Positions 16,066 to 29,582 of a DNA stretch of 56,832 nt are shown here, piece after piece. Made by a program: the position numbers and the translations under genes. The DNA is taken from positions 1-56,832 of the forward strand of contig CAIMSU010000319.1 of NCBI GenBank assembly GCA_903844155.1, in the 5' to 3' direction. The stretch's first letter is position 1. Each line of letters opens with the position of its first letter. The stretch is from an uncultured Pseudomonadota bacterium. GTDB taxonomy: Bacteria; Myxococcota_A; UBA796; SXON01. The notes under the pieces were generated by a model. The model made no database searches. It had not been told where the DNA came from and was given only the letters and a program-made list of their open reading frames with translations.

Positions 16066-17154
16066 TTGCGGCGCGGCGCAGGCGCTCGACCCCTGCCCGA
16101 CGAGCTCCTCGCCGCTGACGCGGTGCTCTACGAGGCGAGTCGGGCGATCGATCCCGCCCGGCTTTTGAACCCGCTGAACGTGGCGGACGCGCAGATGGGC
16201 TTCCTCGCGGGCCTGGCGGAGCCCCCGTTTCGCTACGCGGTGTCGGCTGAGCTCGCAGGATGGCGGGCCCGGATCCTCGCGCTCCCGCTGCCCGCCTCGC
16301 ATCCGTTCAGCGATGTGGTTGGCCACGCCATCCGCGCGTGGGTGGCCATGGCCGATGCGTTCCTGAATCGTGACGCCGAGAGTTTTGAGCGGTGGGGCGA
16401 GGTCGAGCGGTGGGAGGTCACGGAGGCGGCGTGCGACACACCCACGACACAGTCCGACGCCGAGATCGAGGCTCCAGAGCCATTTCTGGCTGCAGCAGGC
16501 ATGCGTCAGGCCCTGGAGTCCGCGATCGCGGCGCGGGGGTTCGCGGGCTGGGTCGTGCGTTGGGACGAGGTCATGAGCGCGCGCATCCTCGTCGAGTCGG
16601 CCCGGCGAGAGGTGCGCGTCAACCCACGCGCATCGTTCCGCCAAAGCGATGTTCGCCGCCTCATCGCGCATGAGATCGACGTGCACGTCCGGCGAGCGGA
16701 GAACGGGGCGAAGCTGCCGTTGCGGATGTTCGGCACCGGCCTTCCCGGGAGCCTGCAGACCGAAGAGGGGCTCGCCATCTACGCGGAAGAGCGGGTGGGC
16801 ATCCGGAACCCGGACGCGCGGGGACAGGAGAGTCGGCTACGGAGGGCCATCCAACTTGCCCGCACCGCCGGCTTCCGGGAGGTTTGGGAGGCGTTGCGCG
16901 AACACTACGGCCCGCGCGGGGCCTTCACCGTCGCCCTTCGGCTCAAGCGCGGCCTCGCCTACCCGGGCGCCCCGGGCGTGTACGCGAAGGACGCCGTCTA
17001 CGGCCTTGGTCGGGAGCGCATCGGGGCCTGGCTGGCGGCCGGTGGAGACCTCGCCCACCTCTACGTCGGCAAGGTCGGCATGGAGCACCCGGTCGGCGAG
17101 TGGCTCGCGGAAGGCCTGGTAGCGCCCGGGATCGTCCCGGACCTCTGGCGCTGA
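16066..17154 (+). CDS. DUF1704 (QEGLA-motif) putative metalloprotease
   Basis: A protein of up to 362 residues of the DUF1704 family, annotated as flavohemoglobin-expression-modulating QEGLA-motif proteins and related to the eukaryotic MATCAP metalloproteases. A zinc-site motif HEIDVH (about 202-207) and the downstream Glu in TEEGLAIYAEE (the QEGLA motif, here TEEGLA) are visible. There is no signal peptide, so it is probably cytoplasmic. The start is uncertain: TTG 16066 abuts the stop of the lipoprotein in the same frame and has no clear ribosome binding site. The substrate is unknown. Confidence 0.82.
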   Translation: MRRGAGARPLPDELLAADAVLYEASRAIDPARLLNPLNVADAQMGFLAGLAEPPFRYAVSAELAGWRARILALPLPASHPFSDVVGHAIRAWVAMADAFLNRDAESFERWGEVERWEVTEAACDTPTTQSDAEIEAPEPFLAAAGMRQALESAIAARGFAGWVVRWDEVMSARILVESARREVRVNPRASFRQSDVRRLIAHEIDVHVRRAENGAKLPLRMFGTGLPGSLQTEEGLAIYAEERVGIRNPDARGQESRLRRAIQLARTAGFREVWEALREHYGPRGAFTVALRLKRGLAYPGAPGVYAKDAVYGLGRERIGAWLAAGGDLAHLYVGKVGMEHPVGEWLAEGLVAPGIVPDLWR

Positions 17155-17688
17155 TCAGTCGACCTGGATCAGGCTGTTCATCGCCGGGAACTCCTCCTTT
17201 AAAAGCGCCTCGACGCCCATCTTCATCGTTAGGATGGACGACGGGCACGTGGAGCAGGATCCGACGAGCTTCACGTAGATGTCGTTGTTCTCGATGCGGA
17301 GGAGCGTGATGTCGCCGCCATCGCCCTGGAGCGCGGGCCGGACCATCTCGTCCATGATCTCCTGCACCGCCGCGAACGTGAAGGCGGCGCCCGCAGTGTC
17401 GTCCGTGGGCGCCATGGCGGTCGGGGCCGCCGGCGGGTCGTCGGCGACATGGACCGGGGGCTCGGCCGACGCGAGCGCGCCGGCCGGCACCTCGGCGGCG
17501 AGCAGCTCGGTAGGGGCGGCGACCGCGACAGGCCCGACGGGTGCAACCGGTACAGCGGCAACGGCTGCGACAGGGGCGGCTGTGACGGGCTCCGTCCGCC
17601 AGACCGGCGCAGGTGCCGGCGCTGCCGCGGGCGACGGCTCCAAGCCGAACGCCTTCTTGATGCCACGCTTGAGTGCAGAACGGATCAA
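17155..17688 (-). CDS. NifU-like C-terminal domain protein with Ala/Pro-rich N-terminal region
   Basis: A 177-residue protein whose last 75 residues form a NifU/Nfu domain, an iron-sulfur scaffold or carrier. The CxxC pair is in GSCSTCPSS, preceded by VRPALQGDGGDITLL. The preceding hundred residues are low-complexity Ala/Val/Pro, probably a flexible linker, behind a short basic N-terminus (LIRSALKRGIKKAFGL). TTG 17688 was chosen because GGAGG lies 5 bases upstream. Starts further upstream would add a non-conserved extension. The gene converges directly on the DUF1704 gene with no gap. Confidence 0.85.
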   Translation of the reverse strand: MIRSALKRGIKKAFGLEPSPAAAPAPAPVWRTEPVTAAPVAAVAAVPVAPVGPVAVAAPTELLAAEVPAGALASAEPPVHVADDPPAAPTAMAPTDDTAGAAFTFAAVQEIMDEMVRPALQGDGGDITLLRIENNDIYVKLVGSCSTCPSSILTMKMGVEALLKEEFPAMNSLIQVD

Positions 17689-17855
17689 AGCCACCTCCAC
17701 ACGCAGTGTACCCGCAGCGCGCCGAACGGCCACCGACCCCATCGTCGGGCCCGTAGTGCAGCCCACCTCCTGCGCGTTCATGCCCGAAGATCGCGGCCGA
17801 GGCGGGAGACGGGATACACGCCCCGGGCAGCCCATGCGCCGCCGAGGGAGTCACC

Positions 17856-18251
17856 GTGTCCAACCTGCCGCACATCCGAATCGTCGCCGCCGAGATCGAG
17901 CGGGACGGTCGCTACCTCATCACCCAGCGACGGGCCGAGGCGGCGCTTCCGATGCTGTGGGAGTTCCCGGGCGGCCGGGTGCAGGACGGCGAGAGTGATT
18001 CGGACGCACTGCGTCGCGCCATTCGTGACCGCCTGGATGTCGGCGCTCAGGTCGGCCATCGCGTGCTGCACGTGACACATTCCTACGATGCCTACGCGCT
18101 CGACATGGTGGTGTATCGCTGTGCGTTGGTCGGTACACCGCGCCCCGCGCGCGTCGCCGAGTTCCGCTGGGTGCGCCCCGACGAGTTTGGGCAGTACCAG
18201 TTCCCGGGCGCCGACCAGCAGACGGTGGATGCCCTCCTGTCCGGCAGCTGA
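17856..18251 (+). CDS. Nudix (MutT-like) domain protein with a degenerate Nudix box
   Basis: A 131-residue Nudix-fold protein resembling MutT-type nucleotide pyrophosphohydrolases. GTG 17856 has GAGGGAG 5 bases upstream. The segment GGRVQDGESDSDALRRAIRDRL aligns with the Nudix box GX5EX7REUXEE, but the metal-binding core REUXEE reads RAIRDR. The three acidic positions are Ala, Asp and Arg. Since these Glu residues bind Mg2+ and activate water, the protein may be inactive as a hydrolase or act as a nucleotide-binding regulator. The rest of the fold, including WEFPGG, is well kept. Confidence 0.82.
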   Translation: MSNLPHIRIVAAEIERDGRYLITQRRAEAALPMLWEFPGGRVQDGESDSDALRRAIRDRLDVGAQVGHRVLHVTHSYDAYALDMVVYRCALVGTPRPARVAEFRWVRPDEFGQYQFPGADQQTVDALLSGS

Positions 18252-18287: not shown

Positions 18288-20462
18288 CTACAGCAACGCC
18301 CGCACGTAGGCGTAGAGCGGCCGCAAGTCGGCGTCGTACCAGATGTCCGCCGCGTAGAGCCCGTACAGTGTTCGAGCAGTGACCATGGCCAACGCGGTGA
18401 TCCCCGCGACCGCCGCCACCAGGGTGTCCAACCGGCGCCACGTCAGCGGGCGTGCCACGCCACGGGGCGACGCCGGATCGAACCCCCGGGACTCCAGCGA
18501 CTCAGCCAGCATCCGCGCCCGGCGCACACATCGCGCGACGACCGGGCGCAGGAGCGCCACCTCCAACCCGAGCCACGCCCACGGCGTCCGCCGCCACATC
18601 GGCCGACCTCTCGCCCGTCGCGCCCGTCGCACTGTCCCCCACTCCATCGCGACCAGCGGGACGAACCGGACCATCGCAGCGACCATCACCACCAGCGCCC
18701 ACGGCAGCCCCCGACCGGCGACCCGGGTCCGGAGCGCTGTCACCAGCTCATCCGTCGGCGTCGACAGCGCGAGCAGCAGGCCCGCGGCCGTAACGGCGAT
18801 GAAGCGGGTCGACTGGGCGAGCCCGTGCATCGCGCCCTCCCGCCAGAAGGTCACCGGACCGAGGCTCAGCAGCGGCGTTCGCGGCCAGTCCGACCAGAAG
18901 ACCGACTGCGAGAAGGCCGTCGACCAGGCGACCAGCACGGTCCCCAGCACGAGGCCGCGCCGAAACGGCCTGGCCTTCGGGTGAACAACGGCGGCGCCAA
19001 CGAGCGCGACCGCAAGGAGTCCGAGGACGGCGGTCCCGTCGACGAGGACGACCAAGAGCCCGAGCAGGGCGACGAGCGCGAGCCGTAGACGGGCATCCAA
19101 CCCCGCGCGCCCCTCGCCCGCCGACCGAGGAGACACCTCCGCAGGAGCGACGGACGCACGCGCGGTCAGCCATCCACTCGACGCCACAGGAGCATCCTCG
19201 CGGATCCTCCCCCCGTCCATCCACACCACCCGGCTCGCCCACGCCGCCACCAGCTCCGGATCGTGGCTGGCAAAGACGGCCGTCTCCGACCCGGCCCAGA
19301 CGGCCTGGAAAAGTCGGGCGAGGCTCTCCGCGTCCTGCCCGCTCCCCGCCTCGTCCAGCAGCAGGACCCCGGGCTCGGCGGCTACCATCGCGGCCACCGC
19401 CAGCCGCAGGCGCTGGCCACGCGACAGGGACTGCGGCGCCCGGGCCTCAAGCCCTGCGAGCCCGAACGCGTCCAGCAGCGCGGGGTTCGGATCCCTCCCC
19501 CGCTCGTCCGCTGCGTAAGCAACCTCCCGAGCCGCGGTCGCGGAGAACAGCACCAGGTCCGCGTTCTGCGGCACCTCCATCCGGCGCGTGACGCCGAGCA
19601 CGTCCCCCGACCCGGGCCGCAGCCGCCCGGAGAGCAGCCCGATCAACGTGGACTTTCCCGCCCCGTTCCCGCCGACAACCGCCACCCGCTCGCCCCGGCG
19701 CACCGCCAGGTCCAGCCCGTCGACCCCCTTGGAGCCATCATGTGAAAAGCCCACCCCGCGGAGCGCCAGGAGGACCTCGCCCGACGCCCCGTGTTCCACG
19801 TGGAACATCGGCACGGGTTCAGGTGCCGGCCCCAGGTAGACGATCCGGTCCGCGCACCCGAGGAGCCCGAGGCGATGCTCGACCAGGACCACGGCCACGC
19901 CGGCGTTCGCGAGCTGCCGAAGCGTCGAGACGATCGCATGCGCGCCCTCCGGATCGAGCTGGCTCAACGGCTCATCGAGCACGAGGACCCGCGGATCCGC
20001 CGCCAGCGCCGCCGCGATCGCCAGCCGCTGGCGCTCGCCGCCCGAGAGATCGAGCGGGTCCCGCTGCTCAAAACCGCCCAGCCCCACCCGATCAAGCGCC
20101 GTCCCAACCCCGCTCGCCGCCAGGCCTGCGCTCTCCAGCGCGAACGCCACCTCCCCCGCACACGTGCCCGCGAGCACGCAGTCGTCGACCTCCTGCGGCA
20201 CAAACCCGAGCGTCCGGACCCGCTCCGGCCCGGAGAGCGCCTCCGGGTCCCGGCCGGCCACGGCGACCACCCCGGTCACCTCCCCATGCCCGTGGCGCTG
20301 CGCGAGCCCAACAACCATCCGCGCCAAGGTGGACTTTCCGGACCCCGTCCGCCCGGCGAGGACAACAAACTCCCCAGCTCCGACATCCAGATCGAACGGA
20401 CCGACGCATCGCCCTGACGGATACCGGTAGGCGGCCGCCGCGATATGTATCAGATGGCTCAC
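18288..20462 (-). CDS. ECF transporter energizing module: two ABC ATPases fused to EcfT
   Basis: A 724-residue fusion of all three energizing parts of an energy-coupling-factor importer. The first ATPase (about 1-215) has Walker A GRTGSGKS at 37-44, signature LSGGERQ near 139 and Walker B VLVLDEP. The second ATPase (about 230-430) has Walker A GNGAGKST, a weaker signature LSRGQ and LLLDEA. The C-terminal part (about 455-724) is a membrane EcfT-like domain with several hydrophobic segments and basic motifs RRARRARGRP and RRARMLAESLESRG. In most ECF systems these are three genes. It starts at GTG 20462, overlapping the S-component stop (GTGA). With the riboswitch upstream, the substrate should be cobalamin. 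Confidence 0.9.
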   Translation of the reverse strand: MSHLIHIAAAAYRYPSGRCVGPFDLDVGAGEFVVLAGRTGSGKSTLARMVVGLAQRHGHGEVTGVVAVAGRDPEALSGPERVRTLGFVPQEVDDCVLAGTCAGEVAFALESAGLAASGVGTALDRVGLGGFEQRDPLDLSGGERQRLAIAAALAADPRVLVLDEPLSQLDPEGAHAIVSTLRQLANAGVAVVLVEHRLGLLGCADRIVYLGPAPEPVPMFHVEHGASGEVLLALRGVGFSHDGSKGVDGLDLAVRRGERVAVVGGNGAGKSTLIGLLSGRLRPGSGDVLGVTRRMEVPQNADLVLFSATAAREVAYAADERGRDPNPALLDAFGLAGLEARAPQSLSRGQRLRLAVAAMVAAEPGVLLLDEAGSGQDAESLARLFQAVWAGSETAVFASHDPELVAAWASRVVWMDGGRIREDAPVASSGWLTARASVAPAEVSPRSAGEGRAGLDARLRLALVALLGLLVVLVDGTAVLGLLAVALVGAAVVHPKARPFRRGLVLGTVLVAWSTAFSQSVFWSDWPRTPLLSLGPVTFWREGAMHGLAQSTRFIAVTAAGLLLALSTPTDELVTALRTRVAGRGLPWALVVMVAAMVRFVPLVAMEWGTVRRARRARGRPMWRRTPWAWLGLEVALLRPVVARCVRRARMLAESLESRGFDPASPRGVARPLTWRRLDTLVAAVAGITALAMVTARTLYGLYAADIWYDADLRPLYAYVRALL

Positions 20463-22195
20463 GCGTCCACCTCGCGCAGGGACCGCACGAACGGAAGGGC
20501 GAGGGTGCTCGCGAGCACGACGTACAGAAACCCAGGGAAGACCACCTGCATCGCGATGTACCAACCCGCGAAGTTGAGCCGGTACAGGATGGTGTGGAGC
20601 CACAGCCCGAACAGGGTCAGGATCGCGTTGGAAGCCGCAAATGCCAGCGAGAGCCGCCCGATCGTGGGGGGTCGGCCCCGCGTGAGTCCGGAGAGCCACG
20701 CGGCACCTTCGCCCAGCGCGATCGCAGCCCCCGTGTAGATCAGGTCCGGCGGGCTGATGGCGCCGGTCAACACCCCGCGCCCGAGCCAGCAGCACAACAC
20801 GCTGATGCCGAGCGTGCCGGGGCGGGGCTGGAGCTGCAGCAAGGTGGCGAGGAGCACGGTGCGGCCGGCGTCATAGACGATCCCGGTGAAGAGGGAGGCA
20901 AAGGGCCCGAGGACGGCGCCGACGGACATCGAGAGCACGTCGGTCGCAGAGCTGACCACAAATAGCGCCGTTCCGAAGAGGGCGTTCACCATCAGGTCGG
21001 TGGTCGACGCCTGACGAAGCCAGCGGGGCCCTGCACGCCCGATCCACGCGAGTCCGGCGATGCTGGTCAGGACCGTGACGAGGAACCCCACAGAAGCCAC
21101 CGGGTTGCCGCGTCGAACCACCAGGGGAAGCGCTGCGGTGGTCAGCACGTCGGAGGAGCCAAGCGGCGTCACGTCGAGGTGCGCCGTGTACTCGCCCGCC
21201 GGGACGTTCAGCGCGTCCAGGAACACAGGCAACACCGCGCTCGCCGTCGCACCGGTCGGAACCCGCAAGAGCACAGACGCGCGATCGGTACCTCCGTCCG
21301 CAGACCGGAGGCGGGGCCGGAAGGCGGGCGCCGGGGACCCGTCTGCGGCGGTCACTGTTGCCGTGACAACCACGTCCACAGGCTCGGATCCAGCATCCGA
21401 GACCGGCACTGCGACGAACGCCCAGGGCTCCTCCGCAGCGTGCACCCTCAGGCCGGCACCGCTCCAGGCCAGGGCGCGCTCCCACGCGGGGGAGGGCAGG
21501 ATGATGGCGTCGACGGGTCGGCCGAGATCGCGAAAGCCATTCTCCTCCGCGGGAAAAACTGGGTTGGCGATGGTTATTGCGGTTCGGGCGGCCCCGGGGT
21601 CCTTGCGGTCGAGGACGAGGGAAAGCGTCGCGTCGCCGAGCTGGAGGGAGGTGTCCTGGGCGAGCGTGATGGAGCGGAGGGCCCGGGACCCCGACGCGGG
21701 GAGGACGACATCGCCGACGGAGGTGGGGACGGTGACCGGCGAGGGACCTGCCGTGAATCGGAGGAATACTGTGGCTTCGCGGCCCCAGACGGGCACGTGG
21801 ACGACGCCATTGGCGGAGCTCCAGGGTGCGCCGGGCGCCGGCTGGACGTCAATCGTACAGGCCTTGTTCGCGGGAACCGTCAGGGCGGCCGAGGCGACCT
21901 GGGCCGCGCCGTGCACCTCCCCGGTCGCAGTGACGACGAGCGGTCCAGGGGAAAGGTCAAGGGCGAGGAAGACGTCGCGCGTCGGCGACGGAAGCTCGCG
22001 CCGGACCACGGGCTGGGGCTTGCCATCCACCGACCGGTCGATGACGACCACGCCGACCGGGCTCGAGGCGTGCACCTCCACCCCGTCCCCGGCGCACACG
22101 CCCGTGACCACAAGCGGCGGCGGGGTCGCACACCCGGACAGCGCCATTCCCAGCGCTGTCGCCACGGCAACGCGTGGTCCGCCGAACGACGTCAC
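20459..22195 (-). CDS. ECF S-component fused to an N-terminal lipoprotein domain
   Basis: A 578-residue protein. It starts at GTG 22195 with a signal peptide ending in the lipobox LSGC (Cys about 22). About 330 residues with beta-rich character follow (Val/Thr-rich, with repeated segments such as VDVVVTATVTAADG), expected outside the cytoplasmic membrane. A transmembrane segment comes at about 360-378. The last 190 residues form a polytopic region resembling an ECF substrate-binding (S) component. The lipidated extracytoplasmic part could receive substrate before handing it to the S domain. Overlaps of 4 bp on both sides (GTGA) tie it to the beta-propeller lipoprotein and to the ATPase-EcfT fusion. 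Family assignment of the S domain rests on topology and context. Confidence 0.75.
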   Translation of the reverse strand: MTSFGGPRVAVATALGMALSGCATPPPLVVTGVCAGDGVEVHASSPVGVVVIDRSVDGKPQPVVRRELPSPTRDVFLALDLSPGPLVVTATGEVHGAAQVASAALTVPANKACTIDVQPAPGAPWSSANGVVHVPVWGREATVFLRFTAGPSPVTVPTSVGDVVLPASGSRALRSITLAQDTSLQLGDATLSLVLDRKDPGAARTAITIANPVFPAEENGFRDLGRPVDAIILPSPAWERALAWSGAGLRVHAAEEPWAFVAVPVSDAGSEPVDVVVTATVTAADGSPAPAFRPRLRSADGGTDRASVLLRVPTGATASAVLPVFLDALNVPAGEYTAHLDVTPLGSSDVLTTAALPLVVRRGNPVASVGFLVTVLTSIAGLAWIGRAGPRWLRQASTTDLMVNALFGTALFVVSSATDVLSMSVGAVLGPFASLFTGIVYDAGRTVLLATLLQLQPRPGTLGISVLCCWLGRGVLTGAISPPDLIYTGAAIALGEGAAWLSGLTRGRPPTIGRLSLAFAASNAILTLFGLWLHTILYRLNFAGWYIAMQVVFPGFLYVVLASTLALPFVRSLREVDA

Positions 22196-23700
22196 CGGAA
22201 CACCGTCACGCCATACGCGCCGGCCACGCCACCATCGGCGGTCTTGTAGGGCGCCCCGCTGACGGCGACCCAGCGCCCATCCGGCGAGAACACCGGTCGG
22301 AAGTAGGTCGGCGACGCGGTCGAGCACGTCGCGATCCGCGCGCCGGTGGCGGCGTCGAGCAGCACCGCCCCGTAGAGATCGGTCCGGTAGTCGGCCTCGC
22401 GGGCGCCCGCGCCGACCAGCAGCGTCGTGCCGTCCGGCGAGAGCACCACGCCCCCCACCGCCTCGCGCACCGACCGGTCCCAGCGCGGGGTCCCATCCGG
22501 CCGAATCGCGTGGACCGTGTTTTCAGCCGGATGAACCTCGGGAGGCCGGGCTGCCGGGTCGGCGCTGCCCCAGGGAATGTTGGTCGCTGTTGTCAGATAC
22601 CAGACGCCCGCAGCGCTCGCCGTGGCGAAGCCGACGCCGACGCCGATCGGCACCCCAGCGGTCACGATGGGCACGCCGGGCTCCAGCTCCGCCCGGGTCC
22701 CGCCTGCGCCGTCGAGCACGAACGCCCGCCCGTCACCCAGCCCCGCAAAGGCAAAATCCGGCCCGCGCGCCACCGCCTCCCAGAAGAACACCTCCTTGAA
22801 ATACGGCTTCAGGGGCTCAAACTGGCGCGTCCAGCGGGGCTTGAGGTCGGCCAACGCAAGGTCGATGAGCCCCCCCACCGGCAGATCCGCGGGCGCCGGC
22901 CCCTCCGCCGAGCGCGAGACGCCAACGAGCACATCGCCACCTTCATCCACGGATGGAAAGAGGAAGATCGCGTCGGCGGCACCCGCGGCAGGAAAGGTCG
23001 CCCGAACATCCCCTTCGGGCCCGAGCCGCCAGATCCGCGACCGGTTCCGGCGCACCCCGTCCACATTCCATCCGTGCGCGCCGGCGACGATGAGGCTACC
23101 GTCCCCAAGAACGCGGATGGCATAGGCACCCGGGAGCGAAAACCGCCCGTACATCGTGTCGTCTGCGGGGGGCGCACTGGTCTCCAGGTCGTCCGCGAGT
23201 CGCCGTCGCCAGCGGTCGGCCAGCGTCCCCGCGTCGAGCGCGTACACGAACGCATCGGGGGACTGCTCCCCCACGTACAAGGTCCCACCGTCCGGGCTGA
23301 ACGCCACCTGCGCGACGGCCCCCTCCGCCAGCTCCCGCGTCGCGACCACGTCGCCGCCCGGCACGGACACCACCTCCACCCGCCCGCCCACCGTCCCGAT
23401 GGCCAGCCGCCGCCCATCGGGCGCAAACTGCAGGGCCACGCCCGCCGGCGGCACGCCCTGTTCGGCGTCTGACCGACGATCCTCCAGCGCGACCTGCACC
23501 TGCGCCCGGCACTCCGCCACCAACGGCGCTGTCGCCCCGTCGACGACGTCGCCCGGCTTCCAGGCTACCTGTCGCAGCGGCCCGCTCCCCGTCTGCACGG
23601 CACCGCGTAAAAAATGGAGGGTCGACGCAGTCGAATCGGGCGCCGACCGGCAGCCGCCGAGCACGGCGACCAACACGGATATGTATCGATACAGTCTCAA
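22192..23700 (-). CDS. Beta-propeller-like lipoprotein in the cobalamin operon (second)
   Basis: A 502-residue secreted lipoprotein with lipobox VLGGC (Cys17). Repeated blade-like units such as FAPDGRRLAIGT, FSPDGGTLYVGE, LSPDGTTLLVG and FSPDGRWVAVSG are spaced through the chain, indicating a WD40/PQQ-type propeller. The start is a TTG at 23700 overlapping the preceding stop (TTGA). In Bacteroides the propeller lipoprotein BtuG sits on BtuB and captures B12. The location in a riboswitch-controlled uptake operon suggests an analogous binding or hand-over role here, but the sequence alone does not prove cobalamin binding. Confidence 0.82.
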   Translation of the reverse strand: MRLYRYISVLVAVLGGCRSAPDSTASTLHFLRGAVQTGSGPLRQVAWKPGDVVDGATAPLVAECRAQVQVALEDRRSDAEQGVPPAGVALQFAPDGRRLAIGTVGGRVEVVSVPGGDVVATRELAEGAVAQVAFSPDGGTLYVGEQSPDAFVYALDAGTLADRWRRRLADDLETSAPPADDTMYGRFSLPGAYAIRVLGDGSLIVAGAHGWNVDGVRRNRSRIWRLGPEGDVRATFPAAGAADAIFLFPSVDEGGDVLVGVSRSAEGPAPADLPVGGLIDLALADLKPRWTRQFEPLKPYFKEVFFWEAVARGPDFAFAGLGDGRAFVLDGAGGTRAELEPGVPIVTAGVPIGVGVGFATASAAGVWYLTTATNIPWGSADPAARPPEVHPAENTVHAIRPDGTPRWDRSVREAVGGVVLSPDGTTLLVGAGAREADYRTDLYGAVLLDAATGARIATCSTASPTYFRPVFSPDGRWVAVSGAPYKTADGGVAGAYGVTVFR

Positions 23701-24014
23701 GGCGTATCACCCCACGCGGTGTACCAGTCCGCGCAGGTGCCGTCGTCGACGATCGCCTCGCGGGCTGGGCACGCCGCGCCGGTGTCGCTGAGCTGCTCCT
23801 GCTCCCAGACCCAGGTCGAGCACCAGTTCGCGAAGTCGCCTTCCGACGTGTACCCAACCGATGTGCCCCATGTCTCGCCATTGTCCGCGAGACACGCCGA
23901 GAAGCTGGTCTCGGCGTGGTCGCAGAGCGTCGCGCACGGGTCCGCGGCCGTCGCGCAGCCGGTGAGGGCGAACGCGAAACCGAGGACCCCGAAGTGTGCG
24001 CGGACAGGACTCAC
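23697..24014 (-). CDS. Small Cys-rich lipoprotein in the cobalamin operon
   Basis: A 105-residue lipoprotein with lipobox LTGC (Cys20). The mature part has six further Cys (CATLCDH, SACLADN, NWCSTWVWE, AACPARE, GTCADWY) and many Trp residues, suggesting a small disulfide-bonded domain outside the cytoplasm. GTG 24014 overlaps the stop of the upstream propeller gene (GTGA), and its own stop overlaps the next start (TTGA). I recognise no named family. Its place between two propeller lipoproteins suggests an accessory part of the uptake complex. Confidence 0.75.
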   Translation of the reverse strand: MSPVRAHFGVLGFAFALTGCATAADPCATLCDHAETSFSACLADNGETWGTSVGYTSEGDFANWCSTWVWEQEQLSDTGAACPAREAIVDDGTCADWYTAWGDTP

Positions 24015-25174
24015 GGCTGGACGACCACCGCCATGCCGCTCGGCCCGAGCGCGGGTGTCACCGGCGTTCCAGCAGTGCAGTTGACCGGGTCGATCGGCGT
24101 GAACCCGACCGTCGGGTAGGCACCCGCGCCATACCCGTCGCCCACCGCGGCCCAGACCGTGCCGGTCGGGTCGGTCACGAGGGCGCCGATATAGGCGTTC
24201 TTGAGGCTCAGGGTCGTCGTCGTCCAGTCCGCGGCGTTGATGCAGAGGATCGCCCACTTTCCGGTGTCATCGAGGGTCGTGACGAGGTGGCCGTCCGCCA
24301 TCCCGGTGATGGCCCCGAGGTTGCCGCCGAGCGCCGCTTCGGTGAGGAAGGGGCCGGCGAGGGTGTCGTCGGTGGTGTCAAACGTGGAGATCGCACCGTC
24401 GAGCTCGGGCCCGGAATAGTCGGCGTTGAACGAGTTTCCGCCGTCGATCAGCATGCCGGCGGGGTTCTGCGGGTCGGGCTGCATGCGGGGGTTGGGCCCG
24501 ATGTCCCAGCTCGCCGCGACGTTCCACGTGGAACAGTCGATCTTCGCGAGCGTTCCGCTGCCGTCGGCGGAGACGTAGTTCTCGAGCTGCTGCATGGCCA
24601 CGTAGAGATAGCCGTTCGGCGCGACGAACAGCGCGTCGGCCTCCGGGCTGCCGTCGCTGTCGGCGAAGGAGGAGAGGTCGACGGAGCCGGTCTGCAGGCC
24701 GGTCGCCCGGTCGACCACGAGCAGGGAGCCTGTCAACAGGTTGGCGACGACGACGGAGCCGCCGCACTCGACCACGTCGACGGGATCGCTGCCGTCCCCG
24801 GTCGAGAACTCCACGGCGGGCGCCGAGAAGTCGAGGTTGTCGAAGCGCTGGACCGTGTTCTCGGTCGAGCGGTTCATCACGTAGACGGAGCCGTTGATCG
24901 CGCGAACGTCCGCGTCGGACGAGACGGGGATGACGCTGTCGGTGAGCACGCCGTCCGTGATGGTCGCGAGGGCGCCGGTGGTGAAGTCGGTGGTGGTGCC
25001 GACGAGGGTGAAGTGCAGGGGCGCGGCCGTGTCGCCGCCGGTGTCGCCGCTGTCGGTGGACGTGTCGCCGGTGACGTTGCTGTCGCCCGTGGCGGTGTCG
25101 TCGCCGACCTTCGGGTCGCAGCCGGTGAGGGCGAGGAGGGTGAGGGTGGGCAAAGAAACGAGGATGAGACCCAT
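24011..25174 (-). CDS. Beta-propeller-like surface lipoprotein, BtuG-like candidate
   Basis: A 387-residue lipoprotein: signal peptide with lipobox LTGC (Cys19), then a linker of about 30 residues rich in Asp, Thr and Gly (a pattern common in myxobacterial surface lipoproteins), then a repeated beta-rich domain with blade-like units (DVRAINGSVYVMNR, VDVVECGGSVVVANL, ADALFVAPNGYLYVA, LGAITGMADGHLVTT). It starts 4 bases after the TonB receptor stop. Its position directly after a BtuB-like receptor under a cobalamin riboswitch mirrors BtuG of Bacteroidetes, a propeller lipoprotein that binds B12. Functional equivalence is inferred from context and fold only. Confidence 0.82.
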   Translation of the reverse strand: MGLILVSLPTLTLLALTGCDPKVGDDTATGDSNVTGDTSTDSGDTGGDTAAPLHFTLVGTTTDFTTGALATITDGVLTDSVIPVSSDADVRAINGSVYVMNRSTENTVQRFDNLDFSAPAVEFSTGDGSDPVDVVECGGSVVVANLLTGSLLVVDRATGLQTGSVDLSSFADSDGSPEADALFVAPNGYLYVAMQQLENYVSADGSGTLAKIDCSTWNVAASWDIGPNPRMQPDPQNPAGMLIDGGNSFNADYSGPELDGAISTFDTTDDTLAGPFLTEAALGGNLGAITGMADGHLVTTLDDTGKWAILCINAADWTTTTLSLKNAYIGALVTDPTGTVWAAVGDGYGAGAYPTVGFTPIDPVNCTAGTPVTPALGPSGMAVVVQP

Positions 25175-25178
25175 GAGT

Positions 25179-27353
25179 TTACTCCGGGTGGGGTGATGAG
25201 CCAGGTGACGAGGGAGCTTCCCAGCGCGCGGTGATCATCACCGTGCGACCGGGGAGCGGGTAGCCGACGAAGTCGGTGAGGGGCTTGACGACGCGCGCGG
25301 TGTCGGACGGATCCAACGGGTTCCGGGCGACGGCCATGCCGCGCACGTCAAGAATGTTGAGGACGGAGGCCTCGATCGTCGGGAAGGAGGGCCGGATGCG
25401 GACCGAGAGGGCGACGCTGTGAAGGTCGCGCGGGGCGGTCGGGATCTCGTTCGCTCGATCCTCGAACGTCGCCGAGGTGTAGGACCAGGTGTGGGAGAGG
25501 ACGAGATTGTCGAGGCCGACGGCGGAGAACCGCAGCGACGTCGTCTGCGACACGTCCCACGGCGGCACGTTCGGCAGCGCGTTGTTGCTGTACGTCGGGT
25601 TGGTGTCGAGGTTGCGGGCGAGGATCTGCGTCACCGATGTGTTGGATGACAGCGCGAGGAGTGCACCCGCGACGTGTGCCTTGAGCCCGACCTGCGCCGC
25701 GCCTTCCACCGTGCGAAAGTACGCTTCGCCGAGGTTCACGGCGTGCTCGGTCTGCTGCGAGTTGGGCTCGTAGGTGATGAGGTCGTGCACGCGTTGACGC
25801 GCGTAGGCGCCGTCTGCCCCCACCGTCAGCGGCCCGACGACGACCGGGTCGAGGTGCGCGCCCGCCTCCACCCCGTAGCCGCGCTCAGCGACCAGATCGG
25901 TGTTCCCGACGATCGTGCCCTGGTCGCCGAAAAGCTCGGTCAAATCCGGAGGACGCGCGTAGACGCCCGCGCTCCCCCGCAGCGTCAGCGGGCCGTACGG
26001 GCACCAGCTCACGGCACCCCGGGGCACGCCGTACACCTCGGTGGCGTCGGTGCCCGGCGAGACGGCGAGGCCTGAGAACGGCACCTGGCCGAGCAGGTGG
26101 TTGTCGAGGACGTCCACTTGCGCGACCGGCGAGACCGTGATCGTCCCGAAGGACGGTCGAAGCTCCAGATCGGCCGACAGCGCAGCCGTCAGCGACCGTC
26201 GGCTGCGCGACCCGTCCGCCACCCCCTGTGGCTCCCCGGTCACCGGGTCGGTGACGGTGCTGCCGAGCAGATCGTAGGGCGCGTAGACGTCGTCCAGGCC
26301 GCGCACCAGCAGGCTCGTCGTCAGCCAGCGCTTCGGCACGACGACGGCCTCGACCTGCGCGCCGCCGGTGTTCCAGACGCCGCGGGTCCAGGAATCGCCA
26401 ACGGCCAGCTCCCCGAGCGGATCGTGGACGGTCTCGTCGCGGTGCAGCCACCACGCGCGCGGGTGGAGCCGCCACGCACCGTCCCCTGGTCTCACGTCCG
26501 AGCCAGTGCCGGCGAGGTCGCCGTCCAGCACGAGCAGGTTGCGGCCGCTCAGGAACGTCGCCTGCGTCGAGGGCGTCGAGATGGTGCCGGTCAGCTCCTC
26601 GTCCGTCCAGGCCGGCGTGTCCAGAAGCGTGAGCGAGCCCGTCCCGAACGTCGTGCGGACACGCGCGATGGCGTTGGCGCGATCGACGCGGTTGTGCTCG
26701 CGGGTGAGGGTGCGGTCGTCGAAGCGATTGTATTCCGTGCCTTGATCGTCAAAATAGGGCCAGTCGCCGTCGGTGTGGAGCTGGTCCAAGGTCAGGAGCG
26801 CGTCGGTCCGGCCGAGCACCGGCTGGGTCGAGCCCCACGAGTGGAGCGTCCCCCAGGACCCAGCAGACGCGCCGAGGGCCGAGAGCGGCCGGCTGGCCCC
26901 GGCTGGGGTCGTTCGCAGGTCGAGCACGCCGCCCATCGCCGCCGACCCGTACCGCGCGGGCGCGAACCCCCGGTACACGAGCATGTCGGCAAAACTCGCG
27001 ACGGGGAGGGTGGACAGATCGACGACGTCGTCACCGTTGGGGTTGAGCGGCACGCCGTCGAGGAAGACCTCGACCTGCTGAAATGTCGAGCCGCGAAGGC
27101 GGACAGCCGCGAAGTCGCCGAGCCCGCCCAGCCGTCGCACCGTCGTCCCCGGCACCGTTTGCAACACGCCGGCGAGGTCCGTGGTCCCCGCCGCGGACGG
27201 CCCCAGCGCCACGTCCGTCACCGACGCAGTCGGCGTCGGCGTCGCCACGACATCGACCGTCGCACCCCCGTCCTCGTCGCCAGACGCAGCTCGCGCCAGC
27301 GGGGAGCAGATTGAGGCGAGGAGCAGGAGAAAAGACACGGACCATCCGGCCAT
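25179..27353 (-). CDS. btuB: TonB-dependent outer-membrane receptor, cobalamin (BtuB-like)
   Basis: A 724-residue TonB-dependent receptor. The signal peptide MAGWSVSFLLLLASICSPLARA supports ATG 27353. An in-frame GTG at 27392 would add 13 residues before it. The plug domain (about 45-155) shows LAGVLQTVPGTTVRRLGG, VRLRGSTFQQVEVFLDGVPLN and APARYGSAAMGGVLDLRTTP. A long alternating beta-barrel ends in PGRTVMITARWE. The cobalamin riboswitch lies immediately upstream, which is the main reason to assign B12 as ligand, and the import genes downstream fit. No TonB/ExbB genes occur in the window. Confidence 0.9.
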   Translation of the reverse strand: MAGWSVSFLLLLASICSPLARAASGDEDGGATVDVVATPTPTASVTDVALGPSAAGTTDLAGVLQTVPGTTVRRLGGLGDFAAVRLRGSTFQQVEVFLDGVPLNPNGDDVVDLSTLPVASFADMLVYRGFAPARYGSAAMGGVLDLRTTPAGASRPLSALGASAGSWGTLHSWGSTQPVLGRTDALLTLDQLHTDGDWPYFDDQGTEYNRFDDRTLTREHNRVDRANAIARVRTTFGTGSLTLLDTPAWTDEELTGTISTPSTQATFLSGRNLLVLDGDLAGTGSDVRPGDGAWRLHPRAWWLHRDETVHDPLGELAVGDSWTRGVWNTGGAQVEAVVVPKRWLTTSLLVRGLDDVYAPYDLLGSTVTDPVTGEPQGVADGSRSRRSLTAALSADLELRPSFGTITVSPVAQVDVLDNHLLGQVPFSGLAVSPGTDATEVYGVPRGAVSWCPYGPLTLRGSAGVYARPPDLTELFGDQGTIVGNTDLVAERGYGVEAGAHLDPVVVGPLTVGADGAYARQRVHDLITYEPNSQQTEHAVNLGEAYFRTVEGAAQVGLKAHVAGALLALSSNTSVTQILARNLDTNPTYSNNALPNVPPWDVSQTTSLRFSAVGLDNLVLSHTWSYTSATFEDRANEIPTAPRDLHSVALSVRIRPSFPTIEASVLNILDVRGMAVARNPLDPSDTARVVKPLTDFVGYPLPGRTVMITARWEAPSSPGSSPHPE

Positions 27354-27440
27354 CCCTGTGGTGAGGGACGGGCCGGCGGGGCTGGGGACCACGCACGGCT
27401 CGCCCCATCACGCACCCCGAAGGACGGCGGCAAAGGACAT

Positions 27441-27636
27441 CGAGGCCGGTCTCCTGACTCTCGGATCGTCCGCAGCCGCTCCGCCTTCCCGGTCATGCCC
27501 GGTGGCGCGTGGTGAATCTCCCAAGGGGAACCCAACACAATGAGCGACGCGTACCCGATGACAGTGGCGGGGGCCGTGCTGGATTCTCACCAGCTTCCCG
27601 TTTCACCGCGCGCTGCGCGGCACCTGGACGTCACGT
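27441..27636 (-). promoter_or_regulatory. Cobalamin riboswitch
   Basis: On the minus strand the leader contains the conserved pieces of the B12 riboswitch in order: AGGTGCC, then GAAACGGGAAGCTGGTGAGA, AATCCAGCACGGCCCCCGC and CACTGT in the core, then CGCCACCGGG and CCGGGAAGGCGGAGC, and finally the 3' B12 box GAGTCAGGAGACCGGCC. It ends about 50-90 bases before the two candidate starts of the TonB receptor gene. B12 binding should switch off expression of the whole downstream operon (TonB receptor to EcfT). No clear intrinsic terminator was seen between riboswitch and start, so control may be at translation. Confidence 0.95.
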
Positions 27637-28051: not shown

Positions 28052-29582
28052 CTACAAACCGGCCTGCGGCGCGAGCAGCGTCCACAGCGGGCCCTTGACC
28101 CCCTGGCGGCGCACCGCTCGCAGAAACCGCTCCACGCGCTCCCCGGCGAGCCCCGGGAAATACCAGTGCGGGTGGGTGCGCATCACGCCACGCGCCCACG
28201 CCTCGAGCGTCCCCTCCACCGCCGGGCTCACGTAGAACACCGGGGCGAGGCCGATCTCCTGCGACACCCCCGCCGCCTTCACTCTGCGCGCGAGCGGCGT
28301 CCCCGGGTAGAGCCGAACCCCGAGCATCGCCACCACCGCGGTCGGCCGGGCCGCGTTGACGACCCGAAGCGTCGCCTCCAGCGTCTCCGGGGTCTCGCCC
28401 GGACCGCCCAGGATCAAGCTCATGCTGTACGGAATTCCCGCGGCGACGAGGTCGCCGGCCGCGCGCTGGATGGCATCGACTCCGAACGGCTTGCCCAGCG
28501 CCGCGAGGGTCTCCGGGGTGCCGGCGTCGACGCCAAGCTCGACGCCCTCGCAGCCTGCGCGGCGCATCTTGCGGAGGAGGTCGGGGGCAAGGCCCTTCGG
28601 GGAGGCAAAAGCGGTCCAGCGGAGCTGGCAGATCGCGGCGGATCAAGGCATCGCAGACCGCCAGCGCGTGGTGCCGTGGGAAGTTGTACACGTTGTCGAC
28701 GACGAAGAAGTGGTCGATGCCGTGATGCTCGTAGAGCGCGGCCATGCCGTCGACGACGTCCTCCGGGTCGCGACAGCGTGCGGCGTGCCCCTCCAGCAAC
28801 GGGTAGGTGCAGTAGGCGCAGGAGAACGGGCAGCCATCACCGGCCCCTCCGGTCCGGTGATGGCTGTTTCTTGCCTGTCGCGCCTTGTTTTCCCACGTTC
28901 AGGCGTGTTCGTGACATCGGTTGACGTGTCGAGCCCTACGCGGGAGTCGCTGAGCGCGACCGCTGCTGACCGCGTCGAAGGCACGCTTCGTGCAGGGCAC
29001 GAAGTCGCGCCTTCGACTTGGCCAGCCGCGCCGGGTCTGGACGTTCGCCCCGCCGCCGAGACGAAAGTACCGCTCCAGATCGACGAGGTCGAACGCCGGC
29101 TCTATCGTTGGATCAGGCGGACGGGACAACGACCGCGTGATGCGCGGCACCGCCTCGTCACGCGCCAGCGCCGCGAGGACGTCGACGAACGCCCGCTCGC
29201 CTTCGCCCACGATGCCGTAGTCCGCGCCCAACGCGTCGAGCCACGGCCCGGGAAACAGGCTGAACCCGGCCCCGCCGAGCACCACGGGCACGCCGGCGCG
29301 ACGAAGGATCCCCATGATCGCCCGATACTCGGCGAGCCACCCGTGCGCGTTCGGCCACGCGACGTCGTCGACGTTGCGCATCGCGAGGCCGATCACCTCG
29401 GGGCGAGCGCGCTCCACAGACGCAGCGAGCGCCTGCAGGTCCCCATCGGCGTCAAAGCAACAGTCGTGAAACGCGACGTCATGCCCCGCGGCCCGCGCGG
29501 CCCCGGCGACGTAGCTCGCCCCGAGGGGAACCACGGGATCTGGGCGTTGCTCGCGGTTTGCGGACACGATGAAGACGCGCAT
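28052..29582 (-). pseudogene. B12-binding radical SAM protein, disrupted
   Basis: The N-terminal part (from ATG 29582) is an intact cobalamin-binding-type Rossmann domain (LGASYVAGAARAAGHDV, VVLGGAGFSLFPGPWLDALG, GEGERAF) and runs to NVQTRRG, the segment just before the radical SAM cysteines. There the frame enters an inserted segment and meets a stop at 28899. After the insertion the same frame resumes precisely with CPFSCAYCTYPLLEG, the CxxxCxxC [4Fe-4S]/AdoMet motif. Near 28625 one extra base shifts the frame. The remainder (RWTAFASPKGL ... GGPGETPETLEATL) continues in another frame to 28052. With a stop and a frameshift the gene is probably inactive, unless the frameshift is an assembly error. 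Confidence 0.85.
28831..29027. mobile_element. Structured insertion of about 190 bp in the radical SAM gene, with 5-bp direct repeats
   Basis: The insertion splits the radical SAM coding sequence exactly before its Cys motif and is bordered by direct repeats CAGCC (28831-28835 and 29023-29027), as expected of a target duplication. One end forms a perfect 13-bp hairpin (CAGCCATCACCGG / CCGGTGATGGCTG, 28831-28866) followed by TTTCTT, like an intrinsic terminator on the plus strand. The other end (about 28974-29018) folds into a second long hairpin with arms GTCGAAGGC / GCCTTCGAC. It has no transposase, so it is a non-autonomous element. The net insertion is 192 bp, a multiple of three, but carries an in-frame stop. 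Confidence 0.75.

Follow-up and report, generated by a model that had tools for sequence, protein, structure and literature searches.

Many B12-auxotrophic Gram-negative bacteria possess BtuB without BtuCDF, and how they complete the uptake of the vitamin is an open question (PMC6072759). The locus described here, part of a stretch of 56,832 nucleotides from an uncultured Myxococcota bacterium (the window, contig C319), poses this question for a single operon, in which a BtuB-like receptor is encoded together with the parts of an ECF-type importer. The operon probably specifies a BtuB/BtuG-like outer-membrane module with presumed affinity for B12, coupled to an ECF-type corrinoid importer in the inner membrane; the roles of the S-component and of the relay proteins are less certain than this overall function. 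If so, it would provide a concrete answer to the question of BtuB without BtuCDF, as far as one large group of uncultured Myxococcota is concerned.

The assembly comprises 8.13 Mb in 375 contigs and is 95.6% complete. A cobalamin riboswitch precedes six minus-strand genes, which encode, in this order, the BtuB-like receptor, the lipoproteins PropA, SmallC and PropB, a fusion protein, and the ABC-ABC-EcfT protein (AAT), as compiled in Table 1. Reading frames overlap by 4 nt at four junctions (PropA/SmallC, SmallC/PropB, PropB/fusion, and fusion/AAT), and a gap of 4 nt separates the genes for the receptor and PropA. The mechanically listed starts of three open reading frames lie too far upstream, and overlapping GTG starts agree better with the homologues; the true start of the receptor may be located slightly downstream of the assigned GTG. 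Chance can be set aside as the origin of the six reading frames, because many related genomes contain all six, as a rule in the same order, and because the lipobox cysteines show little or no variation in the homologue alignments. The preliminary description had read a B12 riboswitch, an overlapping six-gene operon and lipoboxes from the DNA, and had proposed a search for the same gene order in other Myxococcota; these points were upheld by the RF00174 match, by the six reading frames with their four overlaps, by the aligned cysteines, and by the recurrence of the operon in related genomes of the order.

Table 1. Coordinates of the riboswitch and of the six operon genes in the window.
Feature	Position	Strand	Remarks and evidence
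Cobalamin riboswitch aptamer, RF00174	27427-27642	-	Operon head; cmscan 105.7 bits
BtuB-like TonB-dependent outer-membrane receptor	25179-27392	-	GTG start, 737 aa; Pfam Plug
PropA, BtuG-like lipoprotein: lipobox LTGC, D/T-rich linker, acidic beta-propeller	24011-25174	-	AF2 model, Foldseek/VIA, lipobox Cys
SmallC, 105-aa lipoprotein with six further conserved cysteines	23697-24014	-	16-sequence alignment, gene order
PropB, WD40/PD40-type propeller lipoprotein, TTG start	22192-23700	-	Pfam PD40, profile against PDB
Fusion: lipobox Cys22, Ig-like domains, C-terminal membrane domain (putative S-component)	20459-22195	-	Alignment, AF2, Ig-like matches
ABC-ABC-EcfT (AAT), ECF module in one chain	18288-20462	-	ABC_tran, CbiQ, ECF_ATPase_1, motifs

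The fusion gene was found in 41 of the 63 genomes of the same order, and in 43 when a profile was used. Most members of the window's family keep the six-gene order and strand. In other families the genes for PropB, fusion and AAT come first and those for BtuB and PropA, with or without SmallC, second (loci L041 and L054), or the ECF half occurs by itself. From these rearranged halves two modules can therefore be distinguished, an outer-membrane module (BtuB, PropA, SmallC) and an inner-membrane module (PropB, fusion, ATPases, EcfT). Beyond the order, and apart from one marginal match, the fusion was encountered only in a small number of genomes from the same class. The named records that bear the operon are metagenome-assembled genomes; their titles read Myxococcales, Myxococcota or Deltaproteobacteria, and many come from lakes. 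Two further operon-bearing records of this kind (L072 and L075) carry the names Klebsiella pneumoniae and Bifidobacterium breve in their titles; both fall among the Myxococcota genomes, and the titles look wrong. In another genome (G043:C215) a single contig holds the operon region in two mutually inverted copies, with mirror-image matches to riboswitch, PropA and PropB, probably an assembly palindrome.

The aptamer aligns with the full-length RF00174 model (positions 1-189; E 1.8e-25), and its score compares with a gathering score of 31.5; according to a whole-genome search it is the sole cobalamin riboswitch of the genome. It would turn the operon off when the B12 supply of the cell is sufficient. 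The linkage extends well beyond the window: in 36 of the 63 genomes PropA lies 2.0-3.9 kb downstream of such a riboswitch on the same strand, with ~0.05 expected by chance, and the distance nearly always corresponds to about one receptor gene. The PropB-fusion-ECF genes directly follow a riboswitch in two other genomes (G051 and G059), and no adjacent riboswitch was detected for most such modules outside the window's family. The scarcity of riboswitches at stand-alone ECF modules is the main weakness in extending the B12 assignment to all of them.

The motor of the inner-membrane module is contained in AAT, which is matched by ABC_tran in two stretches (8.9e-42), by ECF_ATPase_1 (3.1e-59), and by CbiQ over nearly the whole model (4.7e-18). 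Two sets of Walker A, signature and Walker B motifs are intact, the second signature reading LSRGQ, and two RG motifs of the EcfT type, ARRARGR and ESRGF, are present. As judged from its sequence, the chain unites two ECF-type ABC ATPase domains with an EcfT (CbiQ) component. In several families and many relatives (for example L041 and L049) the double ATPase (~510-530 aa) and EcfT (~267 aa) are separate reading frames, and the single chain is therefore regarded as a local fusion.

In the fusion protein, the lipobox residue Cys22 is nearly invariant (22 of 23) and is followed by Ig-like periplasmic domains (residues ~25-363) and a helical membrane domain of ~210 residues (~365-577), for which the AlphaFold model (pLDDT 87.2, pTM 0.67) predicts about seven helices. 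A fold search with the whole model returned matches to Ig-like domains only and carries no information on the membrane part. The membrane domain matched no known family and no S-component in the PDB at E <= 10, and ABC_cobalt (YkoE family) was weakly matched in 1 of 23 members. A YkoE-type S-component was considered and discarded: hhalign to a YkoE-like protein was negative, and PF09819 hardly occurs in the phylum (1 of 284). The domain is thus designated a putative S-component on the basis of its topology and of a gene position next to a dedicated ECF motor, not of homology. The lack of homology to known S-components, and a helix count of about seven in place of six, would also fit an accessory role for this membrane subunit, with the true S-component encoded elsewhere. 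This is unlikely, since the gene lies directly beside those for the ATPases and EcfT in nearly all loci and the operon contains no other unassigned membrane gene; group I S-components, moreover, are encoded together with the module that they serve and are strongly divergent, and NikM has an extra N-terminal helix (PMC5037267).

Whether the importer takes the place of BtuCDF can be approached through the distribution of FecCD permeases. Strong FecCD permeases were found in 24 of the 63 genomes, namely in 10 of the 43 that carry the fusion and in 14 of the 20 that lack it. The two are thus complementary (10/33/14/6), with a Fisher p = 0.0007 that is optimistic in view of the shared ancestry among the genomes; the six genomes with neither are each at most ~85% complete. 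In the window's genome there is one weak, partial FecCD match (2.4e-8, against ~1e-49 to 1e-93 for the strong ones of the order), probably a related metal permease, and a convincing BtuC of the FecCD type is missing from its gene complement. The same genome yielded one weak Peripla_BP_2 match, no CbiC, and at least 22 B12-binding domains above cut-off. The organism therefore appears to be a corrinoid auxotroph that uses B12 heavily, and for which the operon is the only identified import route.

One might object that the outer-membrane half alone takes B12, and that the ECF half imports another substrate, such as cobalt or a different cofactor, and is simply co-transcribed. Such a division of labor is unlikely. 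It would agree with the modules that stand without a riboswitch of their own, with the single weak ABC_cobalt match, and with the ten genomes that hold fusion and FecCD together, where another substrate is possible. Set against this, the ECF genes in the window overlap genes of a B12-regulated operon, a riboswitch immediately precedes the ECF module in the two genomes mentioned above, and ECF and FecCD genes complement each other across the order. Furthermore, the alternative B12 permease in the window's genome is not convincing, and without CbiC any cobalt taken up could not be used to make corrins de novo. Corrinoid import by the ECF half is therefore the preferred reading.

The outer-membrane module begins with a receptor that carries a TonB plug domain (Pfam Plug, 1.2e-15). 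A profile built from 12 homologues ranked E. coli BtuB (1.7e-31) first among its PDB matches, and aligned with B. theta BtuB3 (1.1e-19) over profile positions 92-644, i.e. over most of the barrel. Plug domain and closest sequence similarity both point to BtuB; with 56.8 bits against a cut-off of 599.7 the protein stays below the NCBIfam TonB-B12 equivalog threshold and must therefore be called divergent. Wherever both genes are complete, the receptor gene adjoins that of PropA, a lipoprotein thus encoded beside btuB, as is BtuG.

The AlphaFold model of PropA (12 sequences; pLDDT 88.9, pTM 0.89) is a nearly all-beta propeller, consistent with the seven-bladed fold of BtuG. Foldseek against 350,542 PDB chains placed Bacteroides BtuG in positions 1-11, and 14 of the 15 best matches were BtuG. 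VIA-align gave Z scores of 28-30 over ~300 residues for BtuG, 28.9 for an archaeal YVTN surface-layer propeller, 26-28 for propellers of the 6-phosphogluconolactonase type, and ~24 for YncE and for the siderophore propeller XusB. As the margin over other propellers is small, the fold alone is no proof of BtuG, and the specificity comes from the linkage to BtuB and the riboswitch. Sequence identity to BtuG is only 12-15%, no Pfam match was obtained for PropA, and a single-sequence phmmer search against PDB chains, including BtuG1-3, returned nothing at E <= 1. A profile of the central segment reached BtuG1 at 8e-5, and a leptospiral propeller was matched better, at 1.1e-6. The BtuG family was defined by BlastP at 1e-10 (PMC6143338). 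Given the phmmer result and the modest profile match, PropA is named BtuG-like and is not filed as BtuG.

The lipobox cysteine of PropA is invariant in 16 of 16 homologues, most of which have an Asp/Thr-rich linker that suggests a tether. Across the genomes of the order, many proteins with no apparent relation to each other likewise have such a linker behind a lipobox, perhaps as a common surface tether or export signal. The PropA domains are strongly acidic (net charge -29 to -37), and in BtuG2 the ligand B12 sits on a negatively charged face (PMC10404256). A different scarce ligand for the TonB system in place of cobalamin itself, for instance a metallophore or a precursor of corrinoids, is quite improbable: lipoprotein lids also serve siderophores, with the propeller XusB among the PropA matches, and BtuG2 accepts cobinamide and further corrinoids as well (PMC10404256), but XusB ranks far below BtuG (Z 24 vs 30), the receptor has BtuB as its best PDB match, and a riboswitch of the cobalamin class lies one gene before PropA in 36 genomes.

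PropB was found to be a different kind of propeller. Pfam PD40 matches above cut-off (3.1e-6), and its profile identifies the WD40 domain of PkwA in the PDB (1.2e-26). PropB occurs in all 43 genomes with the fusion and in 2 of the 20 without it (p = 7e-14, an optimistic value, related genomes not being independent). A second BtuG was thereby ruled out, as PropB resembles WD40 propellers and tracks the ECF genes rather than BtuB. On account of this co-occurrence with the ECF half, it is hypothesised that PropB is probably a periplasmic relay. The earlier view of two BtuG-like propeller lipoproteins consequently stands for PropA, whose model finds its closest solved structures in BtuG, and falls for PropB. 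The wider idea put forward along with it, a BtuG-like solution joined to an ECF importer in place of BtuCDF, gained support from the proximity of PropA to BtuG, from the gene order shared with related genomes, and from BtuC-type permeases that lack a convincing match in the window's genome and complement the ECF genes. SmallC, in turn, has seven invariant cysteines in an alignment of 16 sequences (C20, C27, C31, C41, C65, C82, and C94), and none of the 16 proteins gave a Pfam match. Its gene travels with those of BtuB and PropA (L041, L054), and SmallC is accordingly counted with the outer-membrane module.

Taken together, PropA, presumably exposed at the surface, would capture B12 in the manner of BtuG and serve as a lid on the BtuB-like receptor, handing the vitamin to the TonB-driven pore. 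PropB, together with the lipid-anchored Ig-like part of the fusion, might then relay it to the membrane domain, a candidate S-component dedicated to the fused ABC-ABC-EcfT motor, and the resulting importer, similar to group I ECF systems, would replace BtuCDF. That an ECF importer has a relay of its own, consisting of PropB and the Ig-like domains on the S-component, which ferries B12 through the periplasm after its passage of a BtuB/BtuG-like gate, is put forward as a tentative proposal that falls somewhat short of being probable. Should it hold, an ECF importer with a dedicated relay would constitute a second, independent architecture of B12 uptake in Gram-negative bacteria.

The outer-membrane half finds its counterpart in the BtuB-BtuG pedal-bin of Bacteroides (PMC10404256, PMC6143338), which shares the riboswitch-controlled locus with a TonB receptor beside a lipid-anchored, acidic beta-propeller, and which supplies the closest solved structures for both receptor and PropA. 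In contrast, the present operon resides in Myxococcota, the identity amounts to 12-15%, a convincing BtuCDF is missing from the window's genome, and PropA carries a long D/T-rich linker where BtuG of Bacteroidetes has the Bacteroidetes export signal. BtuG had been reported in 2018 as exclusive to Bacteroidetes (PMC6143338), and the lid strategy is now indicated beyond this phylum. The open-access papers searched contained no link between BtuG and Myxococcota, except for one on the DUF4465 family, which has a different B12-binding fold.

With the group I system YkoEDC (PMC5037267) the inner-membrane half has in common a dedicated operon under a vitamin riboswitch, a double ATPase with a T-component, and one cognate membrane protein. 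It differs in that ATPases and EcfT form one chain (split in other families), in that the putative S-component bears a lipobox and Ig-like periplasmic domains with no detectable homology to YkoE, and in the linked propeller lipoprotein. BtuCDF performs the same step, from periplasm to cytoplasm, in many B12 auxotrophs; the window's genome, unlike these, holds no convincing FecCD permease, and across the order the ECF genes are complementary to FecCD. Among the ECF systems, CbrT belongs to one with a shared module. ECF-CbrT and BtuM likewise represent routes for B12 over the inner membrane other than BtuCDF (PMC5997447, PMC6072759). BtuM, a 22-kDa protein, is also found in Gram-negatives beside BtuB and works without an ECF module (PMC6072759), whereas a dedicated ECF module is encoded here. 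The combination of BtuB/BtuG-like proteins with an ECF importer is not described in the open-access papers searched, and an earlier description elsewhere is possible. PropB and SmallC emerge as candidate B12-handling proteins that can be expressed directly for testing.

Downstream of the operon, the window contains genes for a MATCAP-domain peptidase (16066-17154, plus strand), a NifU-like protein (17155-17835, minus strand) and a NUDIX protein (17856-18251, plus strand), and nothing ties these neighbors to B12. Just upstream of the riboswitch, on the minus strand (28052-29582), an open reading frame with a B12-binding domain (28899-29582) is followed by a radical SAM fragment in another frame (28052-28567), and the two look like a single gene for a B12-dependent radical SAM protein that is interrupted or frameshifted.
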